A stretch of 64,000 nucleotides of DNA from Smithella sp. (GCA_012510495.1 JAAZHX010000266.1:1-64000); one strand, 5' to 3'; counted from the stretch's first letter, positions 37,708 through 53,574 are shown. The notes: a model not told the origin generated them from the letters alone. Program-made: numbers and translations.

Positions 37708-37944
37708 TTATGCTTGCAGGATTTCGGCTTCACCCAGTTCCACAGAAATGAATTCACCATCTCCTCTGGAAATAATCCGGGAAGACCGGCACGGTAAAGG
37801 ATGCAAATCCGCACAACTGGCGCAGTGGGCTACAGCGGGGACGGTGAAGGTGCCGCCTGGCGCGTCAATCAAGCCCGACTTCAGTGCTGCAACGACAAGC
37901 AGAAGACGCTTCACGGATTGCCTGTCGCCCAGCGACATCTTCAT
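37708..37944 (-). CDS. small hypothetical cysteine-containing protein, translationally coupled
   Basis: A possible 78-residue protein whose ATG (37944) overlaps the TGA of the upstream large gene in an ATGA junction, with GCAGAGG directly before it. The sequence has a helical start (SVKRLLLVVAALKSGLID) and then CASCADLHPLPC, a possible metal or disulfide site. I do not recognise a family. The overlap and operon position favour a real gene; the lack of homology argues for caution. Confidence 0.45.
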   Translation of the reverse strand: MKMSLGDRQSVKRLLLVVAALKSGLIDAPGGTFTVPAVAHCASCADLHPLPCRSSRIISRGDGEFISVELGEAEILQA

Positions 37945-40907
37945 CCTCTGCCCGGCTTGAAGATCACGCCTCGCTGGCGTTTGCCGTTCAGCTTCACAAC
38001 GAGTGGCTTGTCGAACTGCAGATGGCGCACCACTCCGTCCGCGGGACCGAATACCTCTTCCAGCCATGCCCAGTCGAGAAAACCCTCTCCCGCCGCCGTG
38101 TTGACGGTGAAATAGCCTATCCGGAACGATGTCAGATTCTGGAAGAAATGGCTGCCTTGAGATGGCGTGACCCGCGAATCGTAGAATCCGGACTCCACAA
38201 TCACGCGCGCGCCCGCAATCTGCTCCCATGTGACCGGCACCCCCAGCCACGGATCTGCCGACCCCCAGCGGCCTTGCCCGATGAGAATATAAGGAGTCCC
38301 TGCCGATACTAGAAGCGCGTTCCGGCGCGCTATTTCCGTGACCACTTCCCGGCTCTTGCTACGCTCGAAGCGTCGCTGATCAACCATGACGATATCACGG
38401 ATGTGATCGATCCTGCCGTTCCCTAGCACGCTGTCGGACAGGCACAACACATCGGCGGCCTCTGTATCCCCTATCTCCACCTCGTCCGATTCCCGGGACA
38501 TAGCCATCGGACGTATCTGCAAGAAACCGAACTCCTTGGGCCTGTTCCCCGAACTGGTGAGATCGACGGCAAACTCAATCTCGACCTCCGTCCTCATGCC
38601 CCAGCACCCAAGCTCCATCAGGCGCATCAAGATGTCAGGCAGCGGAAATATCTGGTGTTTGAGAATCGGCGCGAAGCTGACAAGTCGGATACCCGGACGG
38701 GTGATGCTGTCGTAGACACAGTCGTTCTCCGGAGAGTATGTTGAAGCGACGTAGCTCAACGTGTGGTCCTCTTCGGCCACTTTCAAGGGGTGATGCGCCT
38801 CCGTGGGCTCTCCCTCGCCGGCTTCCATCTCAATGGCTATAAACTCCCGTTGCGAATTGTCAAGCATGTCCTTCAGCATCGAAAAGTGGACGAGATTCTG
38901 CGGATACTTGGGACAGAAAGACTGCGCCTTCTCTCCGTCAACCACCGTCCGCCCTAGCCCCAGGGCCACCGTAGCCACCCCGTCCTCCGGAGTCTGCGGA
39001 GGATAGGGATAGAAATTGTATGAACGAGCCACGCCCGCCAGGTGCGGATAGAAACGGGGCCCGTGCCGCGACCCGACGACCCTCTGGATGAGCACTGCCA
39101 TCTTTTCTTCTTCGAGGCGATACGGGGTCACTTTGAAGTAGTTCTTGGCATAGGTAAGAAAAGTCGAGGCGTAGACACGCTTGACCGCGGTGACAAGCTC
39201 CCTGAACCGCACATCAATGTTGTCATCGACGTTAGGCAACATGAACGTGTTGTACACACCGGCCAGCGGCTGATACTGTGAATCCTCAAGTAGGCTCGAT
39301 GACCTTACGGCCAGCGGAGTAGGCATAGCTTCAATAAAAGCCCTCAGATCATCCTCGTATTCGGGCGGGAATGCGGCGGCAATAAAGCGTCTTTCGATTT
39401 CCGCGTCATCCTGCGAGCTCATGGCAAAGTCATGAAGCCCGTTTTTCTGGATAAACCGGTCGAAGACATCAGTACCAAGAACCACCGCCGGCGGCACCGT
39501 GATCTGCACACCTTCAAACTGGTCGAACATATCTGCATCCTTGAGCAGATGGCGCATGAACGCGAGAGCACGGGCCTTCCCACCCAGCGAGCCTCCTCCG
39601 ATACGCGAGAAGCTTGTCGTGGCATCGAAGGCGCCCGCGTCGAAATCGCCGATAGTCTCGCGCGCCTGCTCCCGCCGGTAGGCATCAATGCGGGATATAA
39701 TGTAATCACGACGTTGTTCCGGGCTCGAGTAGTCGGTCCCCCGGCGCGTACGCAGGTGGTTCGCCAGGTTGAATTCGGTTCGGACCCTGAGCCATCGAGA
39801 GAAATCGTTCCGGTCCGCGTGGTAGGTAATCGATTCGGCAGGCACGACCCGCAGCTTGCGGAGCAACTCCCGAAGATCCCGCGCTCGATCTACCGTCGTC
39901 CCGTCCGGCATCTCAAAAACAAAATCGCCGAACGCCAGGCTCTCGACCATGAATTGGCGAAGGCTGCTGAGCAGGGTTGGCGAGCCTTTCAGCATGAACG
40001 AGGCCCATACCCCGCGGGCAAGCTGTTCGGTTTCTTTACGGCTTGATTGCAGCAGAATCGGGACATCGGGCCACTTCTCGCGCACCATGCGGGCGAATTC
40101 AAGCCCCGCTTCGGGCGCAAGCTTTCCCTCGCGAGGAAACTCGATGTCGGCGATAACACCCAGGGTCTGGTCAGGAAACGAGGAGAAATAGCCCCAGGCT
40201 TCCTCGAAGTTTGTGCACAAGAGGATTTTAGGACGCGCCCTCATGCGGAGAATCCGGTGCGCCATGTTGAGCCCCTCTGCGATGAGGCTTTGCGAGTGCC
40301 TCATTACTTCCTGGTAGATTAACGGGAGGAACGCGGAGTAGAAGCGGATATTGTCTTCGACCAAAAGGATGCACTGCACGCCGGCTATTCCGGTGTCATA
40401 GGCCACATTCATGCGATCCTCGACGTACTTCACGATGGCCAGCAGTATCCGGGGATCACCCTGCCAGAGAAAGATACGCTCAAGCGCCGAGGTGTCCTGG
40501 CGCGCCATGAACTCTGACAGCTCCCCGCCGTCGTAGGCGAGTATAATCACCGGGATGTCGAGTCCTGCCTCACGCAGCTTCCCAGTAAGTTCAACCGCGT
40601 TCATGTCACCCACGTTCACGGCCGTGATGATGAGGTTGTAGCGGGGCTCCGACTTGGCGAGGGCAATTGCCTCTCCCCCACTCGATACGTGCGTAAGCCC
40701 GCTGGTATGGTGCAAATTGAGTTCGAGAAACTCGCTCAGAATCAGTTCGTCAAGCTGTCCGTCTTCTTCCAGGATGAAGGTGTCGTAGAGGCTCGACACC
40801 AAGATGATATCCTCAATGCGTCTCGCCATAAGGCGCTGGAAAAGTTCCCCGTGTGTCTCAGGGGAAAGTATCCGTTCCCGATCAATTCGTGAAGCGTTCG
40901 ATTTCAC
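37941..40907 (-). CDS. receiver-like plus PPDK/PEP-synthase ATP-binding domain protein
   Basis: A 988-residue protein. Residues about 30-165 and 175-330 look like two receiver domains. The first lacks a phospho-acceptor Asp (LIITAVNVGDM), while the second keeps the acidic pair in LLVEDN, an Asp in VIADIEFP and a Lys in FMLKGSP. The rest (about 430-760) is a pyruvate-phosphate-dikinase N-terminal ATP-binding fold: GGGSLGGKARALAFM, VPPAVVLGTDVF, PLAVRSSSLLEDSQYQPLAG and VLIQRVVG. The phosphohistidine swivel domain and the PEP/pyruvate barrel of true dikinases are not seen, so it probably phosphorylates something else or acts as a regulator. It starts with GTG overlapping the gdhA stop (GTGA). 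Confidence 0.8.
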   Translation of the reverse strand: MKSNASRIDRERILSPETHGELFQRLMARRIEDIILVSSLYDTFILEEDGQLDELILSEFLELNLHHTSGLTHVSSGGEAIALAKSEPRYNLIITAVNVGDMNAVELTGKLREAGLDIPVIILAYDGGELSEFMARQDTSALERIFLWQGDPRILLAIVKYVEDRMNVAYDTGIAGVQCILLVEDNIRFYSAFLPLIYQEVMRHSQSLIAEGLNMAHRILRMRARPKILLCTNFEEAWGYFSSFPDQTLGVIADIEFPREGKLAPEAGLEFARMVREKWPDVPILLQSSRKETEQLARGVWASFMLKGSPTLLSSLRQFMVESLAFGDFVFEMPDGTTVDRARDLRELLRKLRVVPAESITYHADRNDFSRWLRVRTEFNLANHLRTRRGTDYSSPEQRRDYIISRIDAYRREQARETIGDFDAGAFDATTSFSRIGGGSLGGKARALAFMRHLLKDADMFDQFEGVQITVPPAVVLGTDVFDRFIQKNGLHDFAMSSQDDAEIERRFIAAAFPPEYEDDLRAFIEAMPTPLAVRSSSLLEDSQYQPLAGVYNTFMLPNVDDNIDVRFRELVTAVKRVYASTFLTYAKNYFKVTPYRLEEEKMAVLIQRVVGSRHGPRFYPHLAGVARSYNFYPYPPQTPEDGVATVALGLGRTVVDGEKAQSFCPKYPQNLVHFSMLKDMLDNSQREFIAIEMEAGEGEPTEAHHPLKVAEEDHTLSYVASTYSPENDCVYDSITRPGIRLVSFAPILKHQIFPLPDILMRLMELGCWGMRTEVEIEFAVDLTSSGNRPKEFGFLQIRPMAMSRESDEVEIGDTEAADVLCLSDSVLGNGRIDHIRDIVMVDQRRFERSKSREVVTEIARRNALLVSAGTPYILIGQGRWGSADPWLGVPVTWEQIAGARVIVESGFYDSRVTPSQGSHFFQNLTSFRIGYFTVNTAAGEGFLDWAWLEEVFGPADGVVRHLQFDKPLVVKLNGKRQRGVIFKPGRG

Positions 40908-42509: not shown

Positions 42510-44099
42510 ATGAACGAAAAGAATCTGATCCTTGCGGTGGATGTCGGCACCACGGAGACAAAGGCGGCGCTGGTAAGCTCTGACGGGTACATCGATTCCC
42601 GCCAGTCGTCTTGCTGTTTGTGTTATCCGGATAAATCGTGCGTCGAGCAGTCGCCCGAAGAAATATCGGGCGCCATCTATCAGTCCAGCCGGGCGGTTCT
42701 GGCTGCGCATCCTGATCTGACCGCAAGGCTTGCCGGTCTCGTCTTCACAAGCCAGATGCAGAACACCGTTCCGGTGGACCGCGGCGGAAAACCGCTGATG
42801 AACATGCTCTCTTGGATGGATGAGCGCGCGGCCTGCTTCACGCAGGAGGACATGTTCCGGGGCTGGGTGAAGATCGAGGGCTACCCGGTTTCCAAGCTGC
42901 TCAAGTTCATGAGAATCACCGGCGGCATGCCCGGAAAAACCGGCAAGGACACGGTCTGCAAACTGGCCTGGATGAAAAAAAACAAGCCGGATCTGTATGA
43001 TTCGGTCCATAAATTTCTGGACGCGAAGGACTACGCAATTTTTCTGGCAACCGGCAATTATGTGACGTCCTATGACATGGCCAACGTCACCTGGCTGATG
43101 GACGCGCGCGATAAAGACATGAGAAAGTGGGCCTGGTCGGAGGACATTCACAGGATGTACGGACTCGATTCCCGCAAAATGCCCGAACTTCGGGCGTCCA
43201 CCGCAATCGCCGGCAGCGTCACCGCTGATTTTGCAGCGAAAACCGGCGTGCCCGAGGGGCTGCCGGTCGTGACCGGCTGCGGCGACCTTCTCGCCTCGGC
43301 GATCGGCTCCGGCGCCATCGAAATGGGGCACCTGCACGTGAACATCGGCACGGCCGGCTGGGTCGCGACGCACCATCCCGGGACGGCAATCGACACCAAG
43401 CACTACATCGGCGCCATCGTGTCGGGCGTTCCGGGCAAATATCTTCTGATCAGCAAGCAGGAAACCCTGGGCGCGGCGCTGGACTGGCTGAAGGGCGTGC
43501 TGTATCCTCCCGAACTCCTGTCCGGGAAAACCGCCGCCGAGATCTACAAGATGATGGATGCGGAAGCGGCCCAGTCTCCTCCCGGCGCAAACGGCGTTCT
43601 TCTGACCCCCTGGCTGTTCGGGGAGCGATCGCCCATCAACAATCCGGACCTGCGGGGACAGATCTTCAATATCGGCATGAACACGACGCGGGCCGATCTG
43701 AGCCGGGCGGTCATGGAGGGAGTCGCCCTGAACATCCGCTGGGGTATGGAATTTGTGGAAAAAATATCGTTGAAAAAAAGCAAACCGTCCACGGACGAAG
43801 TCCGGCTGATCGGCGGCGCTTCGAAAAGCGACATCTGGTGCCGGATTTTTGCGGACGTATTGCAGAGGCCGATCGCGCAGATGAAAAACCCCCAGATGGC
43901 CTCCGCGCAGGGCGCGGCCGCCGTCGCGATGGTGGCTTTCGGCCTTTACAGAGATTTCAGCGAAACCGACCGGATGCTGCAAAAAGGAAGCGTCTTCAGG
44001 CCCGATCCCGGCACTGCCGCGCTGTATGACAAGCGCTACCGGCAGTATCAGGCTCTGTATAAAAACAACCAAAACACGTTTCGGGAACTCAATCATTGA
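42510..44099 (+). CDS. FGGY-family carbohydrate kinase (kinase 1)
   Basis: A 529-residue sugar/polyol kinase of the xylulokinase-glycerol kinase superfamily. The first actin-like domain starts LILAVDVGTTETKAALV (ATP phosphate loop) and has the substrate-site motif WMDERA (about 110). The catalytic Asp lies in TGCGDLLASAIGSGA (about 258), followed by VNIGTAGWVATH and PWLFGERSPINN. The C-terminal FGGY-type signature is LIGGASKSDIWCRIFADVL. The substrate cannot be read from the sequence. ATG at 42510 has AAGGGGG upstream; the longer frame from 42453 enters the inverted repeat. It converges on the RuBisCO-like operon that holds a second, divergent FGGY kinase. Confidence 0.92.
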   Translation: MNEKNLILAVDVGTTETKAALVSSDGYIDSRQSSCCLCYPDKSCVEQSPEEISGAIYQSSRAVLAAHPDLTARLAGLVFTSQMQNTVPVDRGGKPLMNMLSWMDERAACFTQEDMFRGWVKIEGYPVSKLLKFMRITGGMPGKTGKDTVCKLAWMKKNKPDLYDSVHKFLDAKDYAIFLATGNYVTSYDMANVTWLMDARDKDMRKWAWSEDIHRMYGLDSRKMPELRASTAIAGSVTADFAAKTGVPEGLPVVTGCGDLLASAIGSGAIEMGHLHVNIGTAGWVATHHPGTAIDTKHYIGAIVSGVPGKYLLISKQETLGAALDWLKGVLYPPELLSGKTAAEIYKMMDAEAAQSPPGANGVLLTPWLFGERSPINNPDLRGQIFNIGMNTTRADLSRAVMEGVALNIRWGMEFVEKISLKKSKPSTDEVRLIGGASKSDIWCRIFADVLQRPIAQMKNPQMASAQGAAAVAMVAFGLYRDFSETDRMLQKGSVFRPDPGTAALYDKRYRQYQALYKNNQNTFRELNH

Positions 44100-44257
44100 C
44101 GGGAATCCGGTGGGAAAACAGGCCGTCGGCGCCATGGCATCGACCGGGCGTTTCTTTTTGATTCCCTGACGGAACTATTCGCTGGTCGGCAGCGAGATCG
44201 AAGCCGTGGAGGCGATCCTGAAGGTTCCGGCGTTATGACGCCGTCCGTGCGGGCGGA

Positions 44258-45325
44258 TTACCGCACTTTGGCGTCCGCAAAGGACCGAAACAGCATTCCC
44301 AGCATCCGGCCGACGTCCTCCAGAATCCCAACGGTGATCCCGTCGAGGAAGCCGAGCGCCGGAAGGCTGCCGTCCCTGAAAATCACCCTGGCCGCGTCCG
44401 CGGAGCATTTATTGGTCTGCGCTGCCGTTTCCGAGGGACCATTCGGGTTCACCCGGCTGAAAACATCCAGCAGGTCCCGGCCGTACTGCTCGAGGAAAAA
44501 ATAAAATATCGCGTTGTGCGTCTTTCCGGCCTTTTTCATATACGCCGGAAGAAGGCGCTGCACGCTCCCGGGCGCTTTTTGCCCTTCCCGCGCCCCTTGC
44601 AAGAGGGCCTCTCCGAAAGGACCGAATCCTTCACGGAAGCGGCGTTCGACATACACCTCATAACTCTGATGCACCGCGGAAGCCGTTTTAAACAGCGTCT
44701 GTCCGGAAAAAATGTTTTTCATGAGGAAAAAAGCGGGCAGCACCCTGACGTGAAAAGGATTGCCCAGATCCGCCAGGTAGTGACAGCACCGGGAAAGGTA
44801 GCGCCACCCCCAGTAGTCGTTGCCGTTTTCAAAAGCGAGCGCGGCGAAATCTTTATGAACGCGGAAGGATTGGGGGGCCGCGCCGAAGGTCGAAGTCAGG
44901 AGCCGGAATTCCATGTGACGCCAGCCGTGGGACCCGCCGGTGATTTTCTGGTTTTTGTGGACGGCCAGATCGTGGTCCAGGTCAAGATCCGGCTCCGTGC
45001 TGTAGATCACCAGCACTTTCCACGGCTCGATCGTTTTCTCCGAAGGCGGCTCCAGGGCGAAGTCGCCGTTTCGTTTTTTATAGTCAAAAGACCAGACCGG
45101 GTCCAGATGCCGGCGCTCCTGATAACTTTCCTTGTAAATATCGATGTGCTTCGGGCCGACGGGCCAGACCTTGTCGCCGAACGGGGGACGGGGCTTTACG
45201 GCGACGGGCGGAAGAGAAGCGAGGCCGTCCAGCGCCCGGACGGCAAAGTAGGTGATGTATTCGTGTGAGAACCAGGGCGCCCAGGCCTGCGGCAGATCCG
45301 GGTTGTTGTGGAGATGATCGTTCAA
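44258..45325 (-). CDS. zinc-dependent phospholipase C / S1-P1 nuclease-fold protein
   Basis: A 355-residue mostly helical protein. Zinc-ligand-type motifs of this fold appear in order: the early His in WAPWFSHEYITYFAV (about 21), HGWRHMEF (about 131), CCHYLADLGNPFHV (HxxxDxxxxxxH, about 183-196) and HQSYEVYVE (about 218). Classical members are secreted lipases or nucleases, but no signal peptide is visible here, so this one is probably cytosolic. The start is TTG at 45325 with AAGGA 9 bases upstream. It is last in the RuBisCO-like operon, 61 bases after that gene. Activity could be a phosphohydrolase step, which is inferred. Confidence 0.7.
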   Translation of the reverse strand: MNDHLHNNPDLPQAWAPWFSHEYITYFAVRALDGLASLPPVAVKPRPPFGDKVWPVGPKHIDIYKESYQERRHLDPVWSFDYKKRNGDFALEPPSEKTIEPWKVLVIYSTEPDLDLDHDLAVHKNQKITGGSHGWRHMEFRLLTSTFGAAPQSFRVHKDFAALAFENGNDYWGWRYLSRCCHYLADLGNPFHVRVLPAFFLMKNIFSGQTLFKTASAVHQSYEVYVERRFREGFGPFGEALLQGAREGQKAPGSVQRLLPAYMKKAGKTHNAIFYFFLEQYGRDLLDVFSRVNPNGPSETAAQTNKCSADAARVIFRDGSLPALGFLDGITVGILEDVGRMLGMLFRSFADAKVR

Positions 45326-45386
45326 TGCCGGGTATCCTTATCAGCGAAGCGGGGAGCGACCGCTCCCCGCTTCATGCGTTTCGTGA

Positions 45387-46730
45387 CTAGATTTTGAAAT
45401 CGGTTTTCTTGTTCCAGACGCCCAGCGCGACACCCAGCTCTTCATGCTCTTTGGCGTATTCTTCCAGCCGGATGCCTTGAATCGCGGCGTCGATGGCCTG
45501 CCGGAGAGCGCGGGCGCCGGCTTTCGGTCCTCCCGGATGGGCGTGAATGCCGCCGCCCGAACCGATCATGGTATCTCTGCCCAGCGTGTTGACGATGTCC
45601 GCCACATTGGCCGGCGTGATGCCGCCCGAAGGCATGGGCAGGGACGGCTTCAGGCCGCCCATTGGATACGTCAGGTTGCGCACGGTACTCATGAAGCGAT
45701 CGTGCATATACATGGCCTTGCCGCCCAGGGAGAAGGGCAGAACGACCGAGTCCGCTCCGCACAGACGGGCAAACTTGCCTAAAATAAGCGGCGACGACAC
45801 TCCCTGATTGGGCGCCATATAATAGGCGCCGGCAAAATCCATGTGCGCCAGAATCGGCACGTTGATGGCCGGATCATCGGCCAGCGCGCGCATGGCTTCC
45901 GGTCCGACGGACAGGTAGTTCACCATCATTGCGTTTGCGCCCGCGTCAACGCAGCGCCGGGCCAGGTCGAACATCCGCGGCAGGCGGTCGGTGACATTGA
46001 CGGTGTAAAGGGTATGTTCGCCGGTTTCTTCAAATACTTCTTTTTCAATCTTCATATAAGCCTTCACGCGTTTGACTGCGTCGTTGTAGCGCATATTGGC
46101 GATCAACTCATCGTCCTTGATCACATCGCAGCCGCCCAGCGCCGCTTCCCGGAAGAGCTTGGTGCCGACTTCCAGCGGATAGCCGCTGCAGGGTTTGATC
46201 ATGTTGTTCAGCAGCGGACGGCCTTTTTTGAGACCCAGCGCCTTCCACCAGCCGTCCGTCCCGAACTTCGGCCCGTTGAACTGATCCAGCGTGGCTTTGG
46301 GGAGGCGCAGATCCAGCAGTTTGAAGTTGGGCACCATGGAAATGTTGCCGATCACGGCGGTGAGCATCATCGGCAATTGATCTTCGATATTGGCCGCCGG
46401 AAAAGCGATCTGAAGAACGTATTGCCGCTCGGTCACATCCGCCGGCAGGGCGTGTTCATAATAAGGAACTTCAAAAACGCCGATGACTTTGGCCACATGG
46501 CCCGCGCGCACTTCAGGCGTTTCGCCCGGCACCGGCAACCAGGTGCCGGTGGTCTGCTCGATCGCCAGAACCTGCCCCATCACCGCCATATCCCAGCCTT
46601 TATCCGCCTTGATCCAGTAAGTGGCGATGACATGTTTTTCCATATCGATGCCTTCCGGCAAAGCTATGGGCTTATCGTCAAAGGGGCCGATTTTGGCTTT
46701 GGAAACCGTCGAATTTTTCTTTGTTTTCAT
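45387..46730 (-). CDS. RuBisCO-like protein (form IV)
   Basis: A 447-residue RuBisCO large-chain homologue. Counterparts of the carbamate-Lys/metal site K201-D203-E204 are kept (GGCDVIKDDE, Lys205-Glu208), as are the N-terminal Glu58, Thr63, Trp64 and Asn129, Lys179 of IKP, a loop-6 Lys (about 338), SGG (368-370) and the GGG phosphate loop followed by HPGG. The second Lys of the KPK motif is Cys181, Arg295 is Met297, His298 is Ala, and His327 is lost. CO2 fixation is therefore not expected. The chemistry is more likely enolisation, isomerisation or (trans)decarboxylation of a sugar phosphate, as in known RuBisCO-like proteins. ATG at 46730 has AGGAG 9 bases upstream; the longer frame overlaps the aminotransferase gene. 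Confidence 0.93.
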   Translation of the reverse strand: MKTKKNSTVSKAKIGPFDDKPIALPEGIDMEKHVIATYWIKADKGWDMAVMGQVLAIEQTTGTWLPVPGETPEVRAGHVAKVIGVFEVPYYEHALPADVTERQYVLQIAFPAANIEDQLPMMLTAVIGNISMVPNFKLLDLRLPKATLDQFNGPKFGTDGWWKALGLKKGRPLLNNMIKPCSGYPLEVGTKLFREAALGGCDVIKDDELIANMRYNDAVKRVKAYMKIEKEVFEETGEHTLYTVNVTDRLPRMFDLARRCVDAGANAMMVNYLSVGPEAMRALADDPAINVPILAHMDFAGAYYMAPNQGVSSPLILGKFARLCGADSVVLPFSLGGKAMYMHDRFMSTVRNLTYPMGGLKPSLPMPSGGITPANVADIVNTLGRDTMIGSGGGIHAHPGGPKAGARALRQAIDAAIQGIRLEEYAKEHEELGVALGVWNKKTDFKI

Positions 46731-46762
46731 AAATGCAATGCTCCTTTGTGTTTTAAATGGGT

Positions 46763-48172
46763 TTACTCTCCGGGAATCAGCGAAAGGACGTATTCCCAAA
46801 TGCTCAACGTTTTCTTTAACGCCTCGTCATCATGCTGCATACAGGCGTACATGCGGGTTCCGGCCAGCGTGCACAATCCGTGCGCCATGGTGACGATCTG
46901 ATAATTGTCCGCAACTTCTTTCCTGGCAAAAATCTGCACAAGGGCGTCCGGCGCCTTCACGTCCACGGAGAAAAACGCCGTTGTCATATAATGCATGATC
47001 GCGCCAAAATTATAAACAAAGAACCCCAGATCGGGACGCGTCGCAAAAAGGTCATTGAGCGCTCCGGTCAGCTTATCGGCGTAAGCCGCCGCCTTTTCCA
47101 CGGCTTTGTTTTCTTCCATGTATTTGAGCGCATAATAACAGGCCGCCATCGAAATGGGATTGGCGGCCAGCGTGCCGCCCACGAATACTTTTTCGCCGAT
47201 GCTGCCGGCGCATACTTTCATGATGTCCTTTTTGCCGGCCACCGCGCCCGATGAAGGATAGCCGTGCGTGATGATTTTTCCCAGAACCGTGAGATCCGGA
47301 ATGATGTTGTAGTATTTCTGAGCGCCGCCCATATCCAGACGGAAGCCCGTGACGACCTCGTCAAAAATCATTAAGGCTTCATACTGATCGCACAGCCGGC
47401 GAATGGTTTTGTTCCAGTCCGGATGAACCGGATGAGCGCCGGATTCGCCGCCGATCGGTTCGACCATCACGCCCGCCACACCGCCTTTGTCCTGATGATC
47501 TTTAAACGCTTTTTCCAGCCCTTCAAAGTCGTTGGGCGAGACATCGACCGTATGGGCGAAACATTCTCCGGGAACGCCTTTGGCTTCCAGGTTATACGTT
47601 TGGGGGATATGCACGGAGTAAACCATCTGATCCGACCAGCCGTGATAGCTGCCGCCGATCTTGATGATTTTGAGTTTGCCGGTATAGGCGCGCGCGATGC
47701 GCAAAGCGGCCATGTCCGCTTCCGTTCCGGACTGAAGGAAACGAACCATTTCCACCCCGGGCATGTTTTTGATGATGGCTTCGGCGGCGAGAAGCTCGTA
47801 TTCGGAAGTAAGCCCCGTGGCGGGCCCCTTGTGCCGGATGAGATCAATGATCTTTTCATCGAGTGGTTCGTAGCCGTGCCCCAGGATAATCGGCGCGCCG
47901 CACAACAGATAATCGAGATACTCATTGCCGTCCACATCCCAGATTTTATATCCTTTGGCGCGGTCCATCGCCAGGGGGAAAGGTTTGTTCTGGCTCAGGT
48001 TGTGCTGCACACCGCCGGGAATTATGCCTTTGGCCTTCTCGAAGATCTCGATGGATTTGCGGCATCGCGCGGCATAAAGTTTATGTTCGGTTTCCAGTTT
48101 GTCTTTGGGAATCGGCCGGGGCGCGCGGGCCAGCAGCTCATCTTTTCTTTTCATAATTTCCGCGTATTCCAT
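46763..48172 (-). CDS. class III aminotransferase, glutamate-1-semialdehyde aminomutase-like
   Basis: A 469-residue PLP enzyme. GSA-aminomutase-like features are IIPGGVQHNLSQNKPFPLAM near the start, the cofactor loop SGTEAD (149-154), YHGWSDQ, the Asp of IFDEVVTGFR (271) and the Schiff-base Lys in LTVLGKIITHGYPSSG (299). It is about 40 residues longer than HemL, and no other haem genes are nearby, so haem synthesis is unlikely. It sits 34 bases after kinase 2 and 32 before the RuBisCO-like gene, so it likely interconverts an amino and a carbonyl group on a pathway intermediate. Confidence 0.9.
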   Translation of the reverse strand: MEYAEIMKRKDELLARAPRPIPKDKLETEHKLYAARCRKSIEIFEKAKGIIPGGVQHNLSQNKPFPLAMDRAKGYKIWDVDGNEYLDYLLCGAPIILGHGYEPLDEKIIDLIRHKGPATGLTSEYELLAAEAIIKNMPGVEMVRFLQSGTEADMAALRIARAYTGKLKIIKIGGSYHGWSDQMVYSVHIPQTYNLEAKGVPGECFAHTVDVSPNDFEGLEKAFKDHQDKGGVAGVMVEPIGGESGAHPVHPDWNKTIRRLCDQYEALMIFDEVVTGFRLDMGGAQKYYNIIPDLTVLGKIITHGYPSSGAVAGKKDIMKVCAGSIGEKVFVGGTLAANPISMAACYYALKYMEENKAVEKAAAYADKLTGALNDLFATRPDLGFFVYNFGAIMHYMTTAFFSVDVKAPDALVQIFARKEVADNYQIVTMAHGLCTLAGTRMYACMQHDDEALKKTLSIWEYVLSLIPGE

Positions 48173-48206
48173 AAAATCACGTCCTCCTGCGATGCTTCTT
48201 TTTGCT

Positions 48207-49808
48207 TTATAAAGCGCATGTCCCTTCTTTTTGTTGGTTCATGCGGGCGCATGCCTTCTTTTGCGAATTATAATATACGGTGAACTCCTTGAACAATTCG
48301 TCGTAAACTTCCCGGTTGTCGGGGTTGGGCGTGTATTCGGCCTTGATTTGAACGTATTGCGGAATGTCTTCCAGGCGGATGCGCCCCAGCGCCATCGCCG
48401 CCAGAAAAGCGGCGCCCCGGACGTTGGAATAAATCGGGTCTTTGACCTGGCGGATTTTACGATCGAAAATATCGGCAAAGATTTGCGACCAGACATCGGA
48501 ATTGGCGCCGCCGCCGATAAAATTCAAATACTCAAACGGGCGCCCCATGAATTTTTCCACCGGCGTAAGCAGCCATTTGGCGTTGAAAGCCACCCCTTCA
48601 TAAACGGCCCGGACAAGGTCCTCGCGCGTATTTTCCAGCGAAAGATTGAAGATGGACGAGCGGATGCGGCAGTCATCCACCGGAGAGCGCTCTCCGTAGA
48701 GCCAGGGCGTGAAAATCACTTTGTTGGCGCCCGCCGGAACCCGCCCGACAATTTTATCCATCACTTTGTAAATATCCGGCGCGCATTCTTCCCGCATCAG
48801 TTCGTCCTTGTGATACAAAACATTGTCCCTGAGCCAGGTCAGGCATTTGCCGGCGCATTCCTGCTCGCAGAGAATGAGGTAGCGGCCGGGCACCGGACTG
48901 GGAAAAGATCCGAGGTTATTGGAGATGTCCGTTTTTTTAAACGGCACGTGGGCGGAGATCCACGACGACGTGCCGATATACAGGTGTCCTTCAAAATCCC
49001 GCACGGCGCCGGATCCCACGCCCGCCGAGGGAACATCGGGCGTCCCGCCAATGACGGGCGTTTCTTCCTTAAGTCCCAGCTCGGCGGCAATTTCTTTTTT
49101 CACCGGGCCGACAATCTCCAGGGCCTGTATCAAATCCGGCAACTTTGAACGATCAAAGCCGATCATTTTCAGGAGTTTATCGCAATAGACCACGCGCGAA
49201 GGATTGCGGTTGTCCGTCAACCAGTGCAACAAAATGGAATCATAGGTGGCGGTGAACCTCCCCGTAAACCGCAGATTAAGGTAATCTTTGGGTTCGAGAA
49301 ATTTATACGCCGCGCGGTAGATTTCCGGTCGGTTTTTTTTCAGCCAGAGAATATGTCCCGCCGGGTCTTTCCCGGTCAGCGTGGGCAGCGCACCGGTATA
49401 CTTTTGCCAGAGCAGCGCCTTGTATAAAGAGTATCCGCTGATATTCAACAGGCCGCCGAAGACATCTTGAACATCCCCCGCCCCCCGGCTGTCCATCCAG
49501 ATGATGGCGTTCATCAAATGATTGCCCGCTTCGTCCACTGCGACGGTTCCGGACCACTGGCTCGTGACGCTCACGGCCACAATGTCGTCGGAAGACACGC
49601 CGCTTTTTCCGATCACGCGCTTTGCCGTGTTCAAAATCGCGTTCCACCAGCCCTGCGGATCCTGTTCGGCCCCGCCGTCGGGAAGCAAGATGACGGGCGT
49701 GTCCTCAAACTCGCTGCCGATCACTTCACCGTAAACCGAAACAATCGCCGTTTTGGGCCCTGAAGTTCCCAGATCCACGGCCAGCACATATTTTTCATTG
49801 CTTTTCAT
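48207..49808 (-). CDS. FGGY-family carbohydrate kinase (kinase 2, XylB-like)
   Basis: A 533-residue kinase. VLAVDLGTSGPKTAIVSVYG is the ATP phosphate loop, IIWMDSRGAG the substrate motif, GGTPDVPSAGVGSGAV holds the catalytic Asp, YIGTSSWISAHVP and PWLYGERSPVDD follow, and FIGGGANSDVWSQIFADIF is the C-terminal signature. It is clearly a different branch from kinase 1 though collinear along its length. ATG at 49808 has GGAG 7 bases upstream. First gene of the operon kinase-aminotransferase-RuBisCO-like-phospholipase fold. No transcription factor is encoded beside it. Confidence 0.92.
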   Translation of the reverse strand: MKSNEKYVLAVDLGTSGPKTAIVSVYGEVIGSEFEDTPVILLPDGGAEQDPQGWWNAILNTAKRVIGKSGVSSDDIVAVSVTSQWSGTVAVDEAGNHLMNAIIWMDSRGAGDVQDVFGGLLNISGYSLYKALLWQKYTGALPTLTGKDPAGHILWLKKNRPEIYRAAYKFLEPKDYLNLRFTGRFTATYDSILLHWLTDNRNPSRVVYCDKLLKMIGFDRSKLPDLIQALEIVGPVKKEIAAELGLKEETPVIGGTPDVPSAGVGSGAVRDFEGHLYIGTSSWISAHVPFKKTDISNNLGSFPSPVPGRYLILCEQECAGKCLTWLRDNVLYHKDELMREECAPDIYKVMDKIVGRVPAGANKVIFTPWLYGERSPVDDCRIRSSIFNLSLENTREDLVRAVYEGVAFNAKWLLTPVEKFMGRPFEYLNFIGGGANSDVWSQIFADIFDRKIRQVKDPIYSNVRGAAFLAAMALGRIRLEDIPQYVQIKAEYTPNPDNREVYDELFKEFTVYYNSQKKACARMNQQKEGTCAL

Positions 49809-50015: not shown

Positions 50016-50471
50016 TCAGTATATTCCCATCGCGCAGCCGCCCGCGAGCGTGCCGCCCAGCTCGCGGCACGATTCGAGAACCGTTTCGGTGATGTCGCCC
50101 CTGGCTACCACCGGCGCGAAGACGGTTTTGAATTTGTAGCCCAGCGCGATGCGCTCGATGGCGCGCAGCGCGCCCGAGCCGTCGTTGCCGGCGCTGATGA
50201 ATACGACAAAGGGCTTGCGGAACACTTTGTCCTGCGCGTCAACGTAGGTGCGGTCGAAGAAGTCCTTAAGCATGCCGGACATGTAGCCGAAGTTTTCGGG
50301 CGTGCCGACGGCCAGGCCGTCGCAGGCCAGCAGGTCATCGAGGGTGGCGTCGGCGGCTTTCTTCAAAACCACTTCGACGCCGTCAATGGCTTTCGCGCCT
50401 TCGTAAACGGCCTGGGCCATTTGTCCTGTGTGCCCGGTCTGGGAATGGTAAACGATCAAAATTCGGGTCAT
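50016..50471 (-). CDS. flavodoxin/WrbA-like NAD(P)H oxidoreductase
   Basis: A 151-residue flavodoxin-fold protein. The FMN phosphate loop is YHSQTGHTGQMA (about 8-19), the isoalloxazine loop TPENFGYMSGMLKDFFDR (about 70-87), and FISAGNDGSGAL precedes the last strand. The C-terminal GCAMGIY ends with a Cys/aromatic pair. ATG at 50471 begins the conserved first strand; a longer frame runs into a hairpin repeat. It lies downstream of tpiA but is separated by a terminator-like element, so it may be expressed separately. Confidence 0.85.
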   Translation of the reverse strand: MTRILIVYHSQTGHTGQMAQAVYEGAKAIDGVEVVLKKAADATLDDLLACDGLAVGTPENFGYMSGMLKDFFDRTYVDAQDKVFRKPFVVFISAGNDGSGALRAIERIALGYKFKTVFAPVVARGDITETVLESCRELGGTLAGGCAMGIY

Positions 50472-50582
50472 AATAAAAAGGCCATCTGCTATGGGCAATA
50501 GGTGACGGGCGATGGGAAGCAAGAGGCGTACTTCTAAATCTTCTTCTGTCCTCTCGCTCCTTGCCTCTGACCCATAGCCTTT
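50472..50582. repeat. long imperfect hairpin between tpiA and the flavodoxin gene
   Basis: On the minus strand the region begins aaaaaggctatggg and ends cccatagcagatggccttttt, forming a stem with a T-run at its far end. Inside are further complementary pieces (agaggc / gcctct) and degenerate tandem words of the type gatggg/tatggg/aatagg. This could be a terminator, or a dispersed MITE/REP-like repeat that acts as one. Confidence 0.5.
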
Positions 50583-51329
50583 TTACGTCATTTTGGCGAC
50601 GATGTCCAGAAATCCGTCCGGCTTCAGGGAGGCGCCGCCGACCAGCGCGCCGTCAATGTCTTCCATGGCGGCCAGCTCCGCGATATTGTCTTTGGTCACG
50701 CTGCCGCCGTACAGAATGCGGATGCCCTTCGCAAGGATTCCGTAAAGCTCTCCGATCAGGCCGCGAATGAAGGCGTGGACTTCTTCGGCCTGCGCGGACG
50801 TGGCCACCTTGCCCGTCCCGATGGCCCAGACCGGCTCGTAGGCGATCACCACATCGTCGGGCTTTTCAATGCCGTCCAGAGCGCCGCGCACCTGGCGATC
50901 GACAACCGATTGCGTCACGCCCTGCGCCCTTTCCTCATCCGTTTCGCCCACGCAGACGATTGGTTTGAGCCCCGCGGCCTGCGCCTTTTTCACTTTGGCG
51001 TTGACGCTCTGATCCGTTTCGGAAAAATATTTGCGCCGCTCCGAATGACCGAGAATGACGTAGGCGCAGCCGGCATCTTTGAGCATGGCGGGGGAGATTT
51101 CGCCCGTGAAGGCGCCCTTGTCCTCGCTGTACATGTTTTGCGCGGCCAGCGCCACGGCCGAACCTTTCAGAGCGTCGCCCACCGCGGCGAGCGCGGTAAA
51201 CGGCGGCGCCACGACGACTTCGCCTTTGGCCGAAGCGGAAAGTCCCTCCCTGATCGCACAGGCCAGGGCGACGGATTCACCGATGGTGTTGTGCATCTTC
51301 CAGTTGCCGGCGACTATCCATTTTCTCAT
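50583..51329 (-). CDS. tpiA: triosephosphate isomerase
   Basis: A 248-residue TIM barrel interconverting DHAP and glyceraldehyde-3-phosphate. Catalytic elements are all present: Asn/Lys in VAGNWKMHN (about 10-12), His in VILGHSERRKYF (about 95), Glu in AYEPVWAIGTGK (about 166) and the phosphate loop YGGSVTKDN. It lies 14 bases after pgk in the gap-pgk-tpiA operon. Confidence 0.97.
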   Translation of the reverse strand: MRKWIVAGNWKMHNTIGESVALACAIREGLSASAKGEVVVAPPFTALAAVGDALKGSAVALAAQNMYSEDKGAFTGEISPAMLKDAGCAYVILGHSERRKYFSETDQSVNAKVKKAQAAGLKPIVCVGETDEERAQGVTQSVVDRQVRGALDGIEKPDDVVIAYEPVWAIGTGKVATSAQAEEVHAFIRGLIGELYGILAKGIRILYGGSVTKDNIAELAAMEDIDGALVGGASLKPDGFLDIVAKMT

Positions 51330-51343
51330 GGGGATCCTCCGCC

Positions 51344-52519
51344 TTAACCCAGCGCCGCAACGGCGGGCAGGGTCTTGCCTTCCAGCAGCTCCAGAAACGC
51401 GCCGCCGCCGGTGGAAATGTAGGATATCCTGTCGCTTTTGCCCGTCTTGTGAATGGCCGTGTCCGTATCACCGCCGCCCACGATCGTGAGAGCGCCGGAG
51501 GCAACCGCCGCATCCACCAGCTGGAATGTCCCCGCAGAAAAGGGCGCCAGTTCAAACATGCCCAGCGGTCCGTTCCAGACGATGGTCCTGGCGGACTTCA
51601 CGGCTTCGGAAAACGTCGCAATTGTGGCGGGACCGATGTCGAGGCCCATCCAGTCGTCGGGAATATTCTTGATATCCACAATCTTGACGTCCGCGTCCGC
51701 CGTCGGCGTCCGGGCGATGACCACATCGACCGGCAGGAGGAACTGCACGTTTTTGGCTTTGGCTTTGTCGAGAATCGTTCCGGCCAGATCCAGCATATCT
51801 GTCTCGCACAGGGACTTGCCGACGTTGTATCCCTGGGCTTTCAGGAACGTGAAAGCCATGCCGCCGCCGACGACCAGACGATCAACCCTGTCGATCACAT
51901 TTTCCAGAACCTTGATTTTGTCGGACACTTTTGCGCCACCGATAATAGCGGCAAGCGGGCGGGCCGGATCACCCATAGCTTTGTTGAAATATTCGATTTC
52001 GTTTTTCAGCAGAAAACCCGCGGCACAGACGGGCACGAATTTCGTAATGGCGGTGTTGGAGGCCGCCGCGCGGTGCGAAACGGCAAAGGCGTCGTTGATA
52101 TACACGTCGCACAGCCTGGCCAGTTCCTGCGCAAAAGCCTCGTCGTTTTTGTCTTCGCCGGGATGGAAGCGCAGATTTTCCAGCAGGATCACGTCGCCCG
52201 CTTTCATAGCGGCCACGGCCGCAAGCGCTTTTTCACCGATGCAGTCGTCGATGAAGGGAACATCTTTCTTCAAAAGGGCGGAAAACACCGGCGCGACGGG
52301 TTTCAGCGAAAATTCTTCCACTCTCTTGCCCTTGGGACGCCCCAGGTGGGAAGCCACGATAACGCGGGCGCCTTTTTCGCGAAGGTAAGTGACGGTGTTT
52401 AAACTCGCTTTGACGCGGGTGTCGTCTTTGACGTTGCCGGATTTGTCCATGGGCACGTTGAAATCCACCCGCACAAAAACCCTCTTTCCGCTGACCTCGA
52501 CCTGATCCAGATACTTCAT
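51344..52519 (-). CDS. pgk: phosphoglycerate kinase
   Basis: A 391-residue enzyme forming ATP from 1,3-bisphosphoglycerate in glycolysis or the reverse in gluconeogenesis. Family features: RVDFNVPMDKSGNVKDDTRV near the N-terminus, SHLGRPKG, FINDAFAVSHRA-like YINDAFAVSHRAAASN, KVSDKIKVLENVIDRVD, WNGPLGMFE and the hinge-side nucleotide loop GGGDTDTAI. Length is typical. Confidence 0.97.
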   Translation of the reverse strand: MKYLDQVEVSGKRVFVRVDFNVPMDKSGNVKDDTRVKASLNTVTYLREKGARVIVASHLGRPKGKRVEEFSLKPVAPVFSALLKKDVPFIDDCIGEKALAAVAAMKAGDVILLENLRFHPGEDKNDEAFAQELARLCDVYINDAFAVSHRAAASNTAITKFVPVCAAGFLLKNEIEYFNKAMGDPARPLAAIIGGAKVSDKIKVLENVIDRVDRLVVGGGMAFTFLKAQGYNVGKSLCETDMLDLAGTILDKAKAKNVQFLLPVDVVIARTPTADADVKIVDIKNIPDDWMGLDIGPATIATFSEAVKSARTIVWNGPLGMFELAPFSAGTFQLVDAAVASGALTIVGGGDTDTAIHKTGKSDRISYISTGGGAFLELLEGKTLPAVAALG

Positions 52520-52543
52520 GCAAATTTCCTCTCTTTGCGTATT

Positions 52544-53548
52544 TTATTTCATGATGAACGACAACAGTTCCAGCATCCGGTTGGAGAAGCCCCACTCGTT
52601 ATCATACCATGAAAGGATTTTAACCATGTTGCCGCCGATGACGGTTGTGTTCGGCAAATCCACAATCGACGAATGGGGATTGCCGTTGAAATCTCTGGAA
52701 ACCAGCTCTTCCTCCGAGCACAGAAGGATGCCCTTCATGGTCCTCCCGGCGTATTCCTTTAGTTTTTCGTTGATTTCCTGCCGGCTGGTCTTGCGCGCGA
52801 GCGTTGCCACGAAATCGACCAGCGACACGTTGGGCGTGGGGACGCGGATGGCCAGGCCGTCGAGCCTTCCCTTCATTTCGGGAATGACTTCCGCGATGGC
52901 CCGGGCAGCGCCGGTGGTCGTGGGAATCATCGAAAGGGCCGAAGCGCGCGCGCGCCGCAGATCCTTGTGCGGCTCGTCGATGACCACCTGATCGTTGGTA
53001 TAGGAATGGATCGTCGTCATCAACCCGTATTCCACGCCGAACTCCCCGTGCAGGATTTTGACGATCGGCGCCAGGCAGTTGGTGGTGCAGGAGCCCATGG
53101 AAATGATGGAATGCCTGCTTTTATTATAGTCTTCGGCGTTCACGCCGAAGACTACCGTCACGTCGGGATTTTTGGCGGGCGCGGAGATGACGACTTTTTT
53201 GGCGCCTGCTTTGAGATGCTTTTCCGCGCCGTCCCGGTCCGTGAATCGGCCGGTGCTTTCCAGAACAACGTCCACCTCCAGATCTCTCCAGGGGAGCTCT
53301 TCGGGGTCGCGGACGGAAAAAGTTCTGATTTCCCTGCCGTCAACCAAAATCGCATTGGGCGTCGATTGGACATCCGCCCGGAGCGTGCCGTGGGTGGAAT
53401 CATATTTGAGCAGATGGGCAATGGTTCTGGCGTCGGCAAGATCATTGACGGCCACAAATTCCACATCGCTGCTTTTGCTTTCGAAACCCGCCCGAAACAC
53501 CAGCCGGCCGATGCGCCCGAATCCGTTGATTGCAACTCTTATCGCCAT
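52544..53548 (-). CDS. gap: glyceraldehyde-3-phosphate dehydrogenase, type I
   Basis: A 334-residue dehydrogenase. NAD site INGFGRIGRLVFRAG, catalytic Cys in ISMGSCTTNCLAP (about 152), its His partner in HSYTNDQ, and WYDNEWGFSNRM near the end. I start at ATG 53548 (MAIRVAINGFG) because GGGGAG is 7 bases upstream; ATG 53554 sits directly against that ribosome site. First gene of the lower-glycolysis operon, next to the RuBisCO-like cluster. Confidence 0.97.
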   Translation of the reverse strand: MAIRVAINGFGRIGRLVFRAGFESKSSDVEFVAVNDLADARTIAHLLKYDSTHGTLRADVQSTPNAILVDGREIRTFSVRDPEELPWRDLEVDVVLESTGRFTDRDGAEKHLKAGAKKVVISAPAKNPDVTVVFGVNAEDYNKSRHSIISMGSCTTNCLAPIVKILHGEFGVEYGLMTTIHSYTNDQVVIDEPHKDLRRARASALSMIPTTTGAARAIAEVIPEMKGRLDGLAIRVPTPNVSLVDFVATLARKTSRQEINEKLKEYAGRTMKGILLCSEEELVSRDFNGNPHSSIVDLPNTTVIGGNMVKILSWYDNEWGFSNRMLELLSFIMK

Positions 53549-53574
53549 GGCCATCTCCCCGATTTTGATGCTTG

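Follow-up and report, generated by a model that had tools for sequence, protein, structure and literature searches.

A conserved cassette joining a RuBisCO-like protein to an FGGY kinase in Smithella and its proposed role in sugar-acid catabolism

Examination of a 64,000-nucleotide stretch of DNA from Smithella sp. (GCA_012510495.1 JAAZHX010000266.1:1-64000; the window) reveals a four-gene cassette coding for a RuBisCO-like protein (RLP), an FGGY kinase (K2), a class III aminotransferase of the glutamate-1-semialdehyde (GSA) type (AT) and a protein with a zinc-phospholipase C (PLC)/P1 nuclease fold. We propose, as the best explanation, that this cassette is a catabolic module of the Syntrophales and neighboring Desulfobacterota; it is probably a new variant of RLP-dependent sugar-acid catabolism, by which these uncultured syntrophs probably degrade a sugar acid or an amino-sugar acid to C3 phosphates. 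Sequence comparisons lead us to suggest, tentatively, that the RLP functions as a decarboxylase of a 3-oxo sugar-acid monophosphate, with chemistry resembling that of OiaX, between the FGGY kinase and a ketose-1-phosphate aldolase. Beyond CO2 fixation, only a small number of reactions of the RuBisCO fold have been described (PMC6302742), and the full range of RLP functions is not known (PMC7325909). Since the RLP described here belongs to a defined clade that has kept the putative CO2-handling residues, lost the bisphosphate site and resides in a conserved operon with testable partners, a new RLP reaction is open to direct assay, which would clarify the relation of carboxylation-type chemistry to the ordinary catabolism of sugar acids. 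Searches of the open-licence literature yielded no paper that connects Smithella with RLPs, and no report among the ranked results of RLPs together with FGGY kinases.

Organization and phyletic spread of the cassette

The cassette occupies the minus strand in the order K2 (48207-49808), AT (46763-48172), RLP (45387-46730; 447 amino acids) and PLC-fold protein (44258-45325), with 34, 32 and 61 bases between successive genes; it converges with a second, XylB-like FGGY kinase, K1 (42510-44099, plus strand). Gene order, strand, spacing and coordinates agree with the initial annotation, as do its family assignments: Pfam recovers FGGY_N and FGGY_C above cut-off in both kinases, Aminotran_3 in AT, and RuBisCO_large with RuBisCO_large_N in the RLP. 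The start of the RLP was placed at ATG 46730, which is just preceded by AAGGAG and is in register with the starts of its relatives, the mechanically called open reading frame having begun at 46799. The genome (2.8 Mb in 332 contigs) has its RLP relatives among the Smithellaceae/Syntrophaceae (Syntrophales, Desulfobacterota), and a genome of the same genus (G067) shares with it the RLP-PLC pair as well as the flavodoxin-tpi-pgk-gap order of the flank, which argues that the locus is no binning artefact.

A survey of 27 non-redundant Desulfobacterota genomes with RLPs of at least 60% identity (22 from a search of the order and five from a search of the phylum) revealed an FGGY kinase in 26 of the RLP loci, namely K2 in 22 and a different FGGY kinase in 4 more. 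AT is present in 19 of the 27, one of these (G385) being a partial match beside a truncated RLP, and the PLC-fold protein in 17. A class II (FucA-like) aldolase is encoded no more than 6 kb away in 10 loci, those of G030 and G334 being examples that unite K2, AT, the RLP and an aldolase, and genes for MFS carriers (9/27), TetR regulators (10/27) and AraC-type regulators (5/27) also recur. The K2-AT-RLP order is seen in 18 non-redundant genomes including that of the window, with protein identities of 65-87%, which places the arrangement far beyond chance. The co-occurrence of FGGY kinases and GSA-like aminotransferases around RLPs that the initial annotation had suggested looking for is thus recurrent, and the neighborhood, on whose conservation its interpretation hinged, is conserved. 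Within the Syntrophales the RLP is patchily distributed (22 of 155 genomes); all 14 genomes with an AT orthologue also have the RLP (hypergeometric p 1e-14), as do 16 of the 19 with a K2 orthologue of at least 58% identity (p 3e-14), shared ancestry being ignored in both figures. The alternative that these genes are merely adjacent and functionally unrelated could draw on the genomes that have K2 without the RLP or the RLP without K2; yet the strength of the co-occurrence (p about 1e-14), the recurrence of the cassette in several families with different flanks and the independent pairing of RLPs with other FGGY subfamilies (L058, L059, L082 and L084) make it very unlikely.

Two of the three genomes with K2 but no RLP place it directly beside a class II aldolase (L096 in G250:C36 and L097 in G343:C178), which suggests a minimal kinase-aldolase route. 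Among the deepest branches, K2 and the RLP are paired in L080 and L083, L081 (G382) combines a saccharopine-dehydrogenase-like gene with genes for an aldolase, a TetR regulator, K2 and the RLP, and in L082 and L084 the RLP adjoins a different FGGY subfamily along with a histidine phosphatase. Neither the PLC-fold protein nor AT was found in any deeper member of the clade. In light of this distribution across the deeper branches and the exceptions, the conserved core probably comprises an FGGY kinase, the RLP and often a FucA-like aldolase, with AT and the PLC-fold protein being later additions. The locus in G067 has been remodeled, in that RLP-PLC is kept and K2-AT is swapped for an SCP2-domain protein and another GSA-type aminotransferase (27% identical to AT); that of G358 resembles it as far as its short contig reaches. 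Saccharopine-dehydrogenase-like genes are found in G083 (L049) and G382 (L081), both of which lack AT. The recurrence of these different enzymes, namely AT, the other aminotransferase and the saccharopine-dehydrogenase-like protein, points to a possible link with an amine. K2-like FGGY kinases (47-51% identical to K2) are also encoded with a saccharopine-dehydrogenase-like protein, with no RLP adjoining, in L099, L100, L101 and L102. AT itself was ruled out as the housekeeping HemL, as it scores 300 bits against the HemL model TIGR00713 (cut-off 527), and the true HemL of the genome, on contig C181, scores 592 bits. Two loci are noted separately: in G358 the RLP and the PLC-fold protein, both truncated at the junction, share one frame of 646 amino acids (L032, 1249-3186), reflecting a deletion fusion or an assembly error, and a contig filed as Dehalococcoidia (L045) has part of a Syntrophales cassette, from the RLP end through PLC and aldolase to the porin, with its first and last genes partial, and is probably a misbinned Syntrophales contig.

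The two kinases are 36% identical to each other, and for both the best named FGGY equivalog is XylB (273 and 286 bits), below the cut-off of 380. K1 is found at only 3 of the 27 loci, with orthologues in just two other genomes, G067 and G358 of the same genus, where it is directly followed by a GlpD-like FAD dehydrogenase that is absent from the window. K1 is therefore excluded from the core of the cassette and is probably a genus-level add-on, and the conserved unit is one FGGY kinase with the RLP. Of the two-kinase system originally envisaged, K2 is conserved with the RLP and K1 is not, although in the distant loci L058 and L059 an RLP is indeed accompanied by two FGGY kinases.

Active site and affinities of the RLP

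The predicted model of the RLP (pLDDT 89.6) and its residues indicate a large-subunit fold with a carbamylated-lysine metal site, placing it in the RuBisCO superfamily. In spinach numbering it retains E60, T65, W66, N123, K175, K201, D203, E204, H294, K334, S379, G381, G403 and G404, including the glycines of the P1-phosphate site; in its own numbering these include E58, N129, K179, K205, D207, E208, H296 and K338. It departs from RuBisCO at K177 (C181), R295 (M297) and H327 (V330), and so has 14 of the 17 positions in the full catalytic and bisphosphate-binding set of forms I-III. The carbamate lysine and metal ligands (K205, D207 and E208) are invariant, E60, N123 and K334 are invariant both among the 12 compared members of the clade and in the sister sequences L054-L059, and R295 and H327 are lost throughout the clade. 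The residues at positions 60, 123 and 334 are G, K and S in MtnW and E, E and R in photo-type RLPs. In RuBisCO, E60, N123 and K334 serve in the handling of CO2 or of the carboxylated intermediate, and R295 and H327 bind the second phosphate. Hence, the simplest reading of the retention of the former and loss of the latter is that the substrate is a monophosphate and that the reaction involves a carboxylated or carboxyl-bearing intermediate. The same intact CO2-handling residues and single phosphate site could also be accommodated by a carboxylase that fixes CO2 onto a sugar monophosphate in these anaerobic syntrophs; however, the neighborhood looks catabolic, K177 and H327 are lost, and carboxylation would be unfavorable without hydrolytic cleavage of the RuBisCO type, so that we regard this as highly improbable.

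In a tree of 38 sequences, with reference rows transcribed from HMMER alignments, the 12 Syntrophales RLPs and the four MtnW-type references are each recovered as a clade of their own (100/100 in both cases), and a larger clade unites the two with L054-L059 and L038. MtnW was monophyletic in 100% of bootstraps, being represented by only four solved MtnW-type references, and with the longest branches left out, a tree holding the Syntrophales RLPs inside MtnW was rejected by the approximately unbiased (AU) test (p-AU 5.7e-10). The RLP thus falls outside the methionine-salvage clade, a placement within which would have spoken against the initial annotation. Its scores against the NCBIfam MtnW-type models are below their cut-offs (320.9 of 409 and 276.7 of 513.6 bits). 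The base-lysine position of MtnW, corresponding to RuBisCO N123, is N129 in the RLP and lysine in all four MtnW-type references; it is the position that we take to hold K98, the base lysine of Geobacillus MtnW, whose catalytic role was reportedly described by Imker and co-workers in 2007. MtnW identity was accordingly ruled out by the tree, the AU test, the active-site residues and the cut-offs.

A looser version of this idea is that the RLP is an MtnW-like enolase in a route resembling methionine salvage, working on 5-deoxy- or 5-thio-pentulose phosphates, with the aldolase serving as an MtnB-type dehydratase. MtnW is indeed both its best NCBIfam match, though under cut-off, and its best structural match (Z 49.5 to 2zvi over 382 residues), an MtnA homologue is present in the genome, and the distant locus L059 has MtnC near its RLP. 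Nevertheless, this appears unlikely in view of the exclusion of the RLP from the MtnW clade by the AU test, the asparagine in place of the base lysine in all 12 clade members compared, the higher scores of the class II aldolases against FucA than against MtnB, and the fact that no further mtn gene was noted in the retrieved sequence around the Syntrophales loci. The earlier remark that methionine-salvage genes are missing is correct for the cassette but not genome-wide, as the MtnA homologue, on another contig, scores above its cut-off. Two RLPs outside the cassette deserve separate mention. That of L054 (3945-5264) scores 419 bits with the PRK09549 MtnW model, over its cut-off of 409, yet has N123 and K334 and no base lysine of the MtnW kind; it is likely mis-annotated by this model, which serves as a warning on the automatic annotation of MtnW. 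The RLP of L060, which occurs with UPF0261 and RpiB, was set aside as photo-type, as in the PDB it is most similar to the RLPs of C. tepidum and R. palustris, with which it shares a clade in the tree.

Contextual connections and the proposed pathway

The class II aldolases in the loci of relatives score best against the FucA and ribulose-1-phosphate aldolase models, in all cases under cut-off. More distant RLPs display comparable associations. The RLP of L057 (44% identical) lies in a one-strand operon that also codes for a 3-oxo-acid kinase resembling OiaK (437 of 700 bits), a small unassigned open reading frame, a GSA-type aminotransferase (35% identical to AT) and, as read by eye, TRAP carriers. 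Those of L058 and L059 (43%) occur with two FGGY kinases, a VOC protein and genes resembling those of ABC transporters, to which L059 adds MtnC. The Oceanobacillus RLP of L038 (39%), which lacks E60 and K334, is near a class II aldolase and a DUF1537 kinase and, as read by eye, PTS-like genes and a PdxA-like protein. RLPs are thus repeatedly linked with kinases of sugars or sugar acids, and the combination of an RLP, a kinase and a GSA-type aminotransferase is seen in two lineages that are distant from each other and differ in the family of the kinase. As a separate observation, contig C295 of the window genome (G000) codes for an 886-amino-acid FGGY kinase fused to a D-2-hydroxyacid dehydrogenase (L095, 6981-10364); the adjacent gene is for a class II aldolase that shares 60% identity with that of the cassettes, and this is possibly a further undescribed kinase-aldolase route.

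The comparisons establish gene content, conservation, active-site residues and phylogenetic position; from these we infer the route outlined here, including each of its reactions, their order and the substrate. A sugar-acid-like compound would enter through the porin and MFS carrier seen in relatives, and the PLC-fold protein may cleave a phosphodiester at this point of entry. AT could then remove an amino group, leaving a ketone beside the carboxylated carbon, a role possibly taken by the saccharopine-dehydrogenase-like enzyme in genomes without AT. K2 would phosphorylate a terminal hydroxyl, and the RLP would bind the monophosphate in its P1 site and, using the carbamylated lysine and Mg2+, might decarboxylate the 3-oxo acid via an enediolate, in a reversal of RuBisCO chemistry like that of OiaX, to yield a ketose 1-phosphate. 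Cleavage of the latter by a FucA-type class II aldolase would give dihydroxyacetone phosphate (DHAP) and an aldehyde, and the products of tpiA-pgk-gap would consume the DHAP. The putative flow toward C3 phosphates originally envisaged is supported by the FucA-like aldolases in relatives' loci, which in two genomes are directly beside K2.

The closest precedent is D-apionate catabolism, in which OiaK is a 3-oxo-isoapionate kinase and OiaX a decarboxylase of the RLP type (Carter et al. 2018, cited in PMC6302742). As proposed here, the cassette would likewise combine a kinase and an RLP acting on a sugar-acid monophosphate; the RLP has the OiaX-type CO2-handling residues and carbamate lysine (E60, N123, K175, K201 and K334) seen in 3nwr, which of the solved RLPs comes closest to the OiaX model (at 426 bits, it too is under the cut-off), and the sister locus L057 has the OiaK-like kinase. 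Unlike OiaX, the RLP is in another clade, far under the OiaX cut-off, and has lost the second phosphate site, and the kinase of the window is of the FGGY rather than the DUF1537 family, with aminotransferase, class II aldolase and PLC-fold partners. MtnW/YkrW, the 2,3-diketo-5-methylthiopentyl-1-phosphate enolase, provides the nearest structures and family models and shares the larger clade and the P1 phosphate site, but the RLP differs from it in the asparagine replacing the base lysine, the presence of E60 and K334, its separate clade and the lack of a methionine-salvage operon. The juxtaposition of K2 and a FucA-like aldolase in several genomes recalls the L-fucose/L-rhamnose and ribulose-1-phosphate pathways, to which the RLP and GSA-type aminotransferase would be additions, and the kinase and aldolase fall under all equivalog cut-offs. 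The 2,3-diketo-L-gulonate/ascorbate route uses the FGGY kinase LyxK, UlaD, a Mg2+-enediolate decarboxylase of a 3-keto acid phosphate, and UlaF with a class II aldolase fold; there, however, the decarboxylase belongs to the orotidine 5'-monophosphate decarboxylase family rather than being an RLP, and no aminotransferase takes part.

Several observations weigh against the decarboxylase proposal. The RLP scores only 171.7 bits against the NCBIfam OiaX model (cut-off 700), and 3nwr, the sole solved OiaX-like RLP found, has both R295 and H327, which the cassette RLP lacks. In the window genome the nearest aldolase (60%) lies apart from the cassette, on contig C295, where its neighbor is a different FGGY kinase, and the ketose 1-phosphate is suggested solely by aldolase similarity. 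AT is absent from deeper clade members and hence cannot be essential to the RLP reaction itself, and the existence of K2 and aldolase without the RLP implies that K2 there acts on a substrate needing no decarboxylation. The last arrangement (L096 and L097) would be expected if the RLP merely adapts stereochemistry, as an isomerase or epimerase that moves a proton of a K2-made ketose 1-phosphate to another carbon or face to fit the product to the FucA-like aldolase, comparable to the 1,3-isomerase RLP of Rhodospirillum rubrum. The enolization residues required for this (carbamate lysine, metal ligands, K175 and H294) are all retained; nonetheless, the strict conservation of E60, N123 and K334, which are not kept as a set in the examined MtnW and photo-type RLPs, is left unexplained, and we consider such an activity possible but doubtful.

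The PLC-fold protein has no Pfam or NCBIfam match, a search of the PDB with its sequence returned nothing beyond chance matches to helical repeats, and Foldseek alone gave no match with E <0.07. The earlier assignment to the zinc-PLC fold is nevertheless upheld by a predicted model built from 16 homologues (mean pLDDT 79), which matches B. cereus PLC with Z 14.6 (rmsd 3.3 over 214 residues) and P1-type nucleases with Z 10.7-11.5, as against at most 3.3 for unrelated folds. H21, H133, H137, H182, D186, H192, H219 and E223 are invariant in the 16 homologues, and the predicted fold and these His/Asp/Glu ligands place it among the zinc PLC/P1 nucleases; the H182-x3-D186-x5-H192 and H219-x3-E223 spacing corresponds to that of the B. 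cereus PLC ligands. Its Trp is internal, so that a mature N-terminal Trp ligand is not expected, and no signal peptide is evident by eye. The occurrence of this protein in 17 of the 27 loci, along with the SCP2 protein and different aminotransferase replacing K2-AT in G067, could hint at a biosynthetic or lipid-related system, in which it frees a phosphorylated head group that the kinase, AT and RLP build or remodel. We give this little credence, as the porin-like protein, MFS carrier, TetR/AraC regulators and aldolase nearby point to inducible catabolism and the protein was not found in the deeper clade members.

Genes flanking the cassette

Directly upstream of the cassette, on the same strand, are tpiA-pgk-gap (50583-53554, named by sequence recognition), separated from it by a gene for a flavodoxin/FMN reductase-like protein (50016-50522, minus strand) whose membership in the cassette is uncertain. 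A glutamate dehydrogenase gene flanks K1. This gene and tpiA-pgk-gap would suit the handling of glutamate and DHAP; no such placement of glycolytic or glutamate dehydrogenase genes beside the cassette was seen outside the genus of the window. Elsewhere in the window, positions 37941-40907 code for a protein of 988 amino acids in which response-regulator-like regions are joined to a PPDK_N ATP-binding domain.

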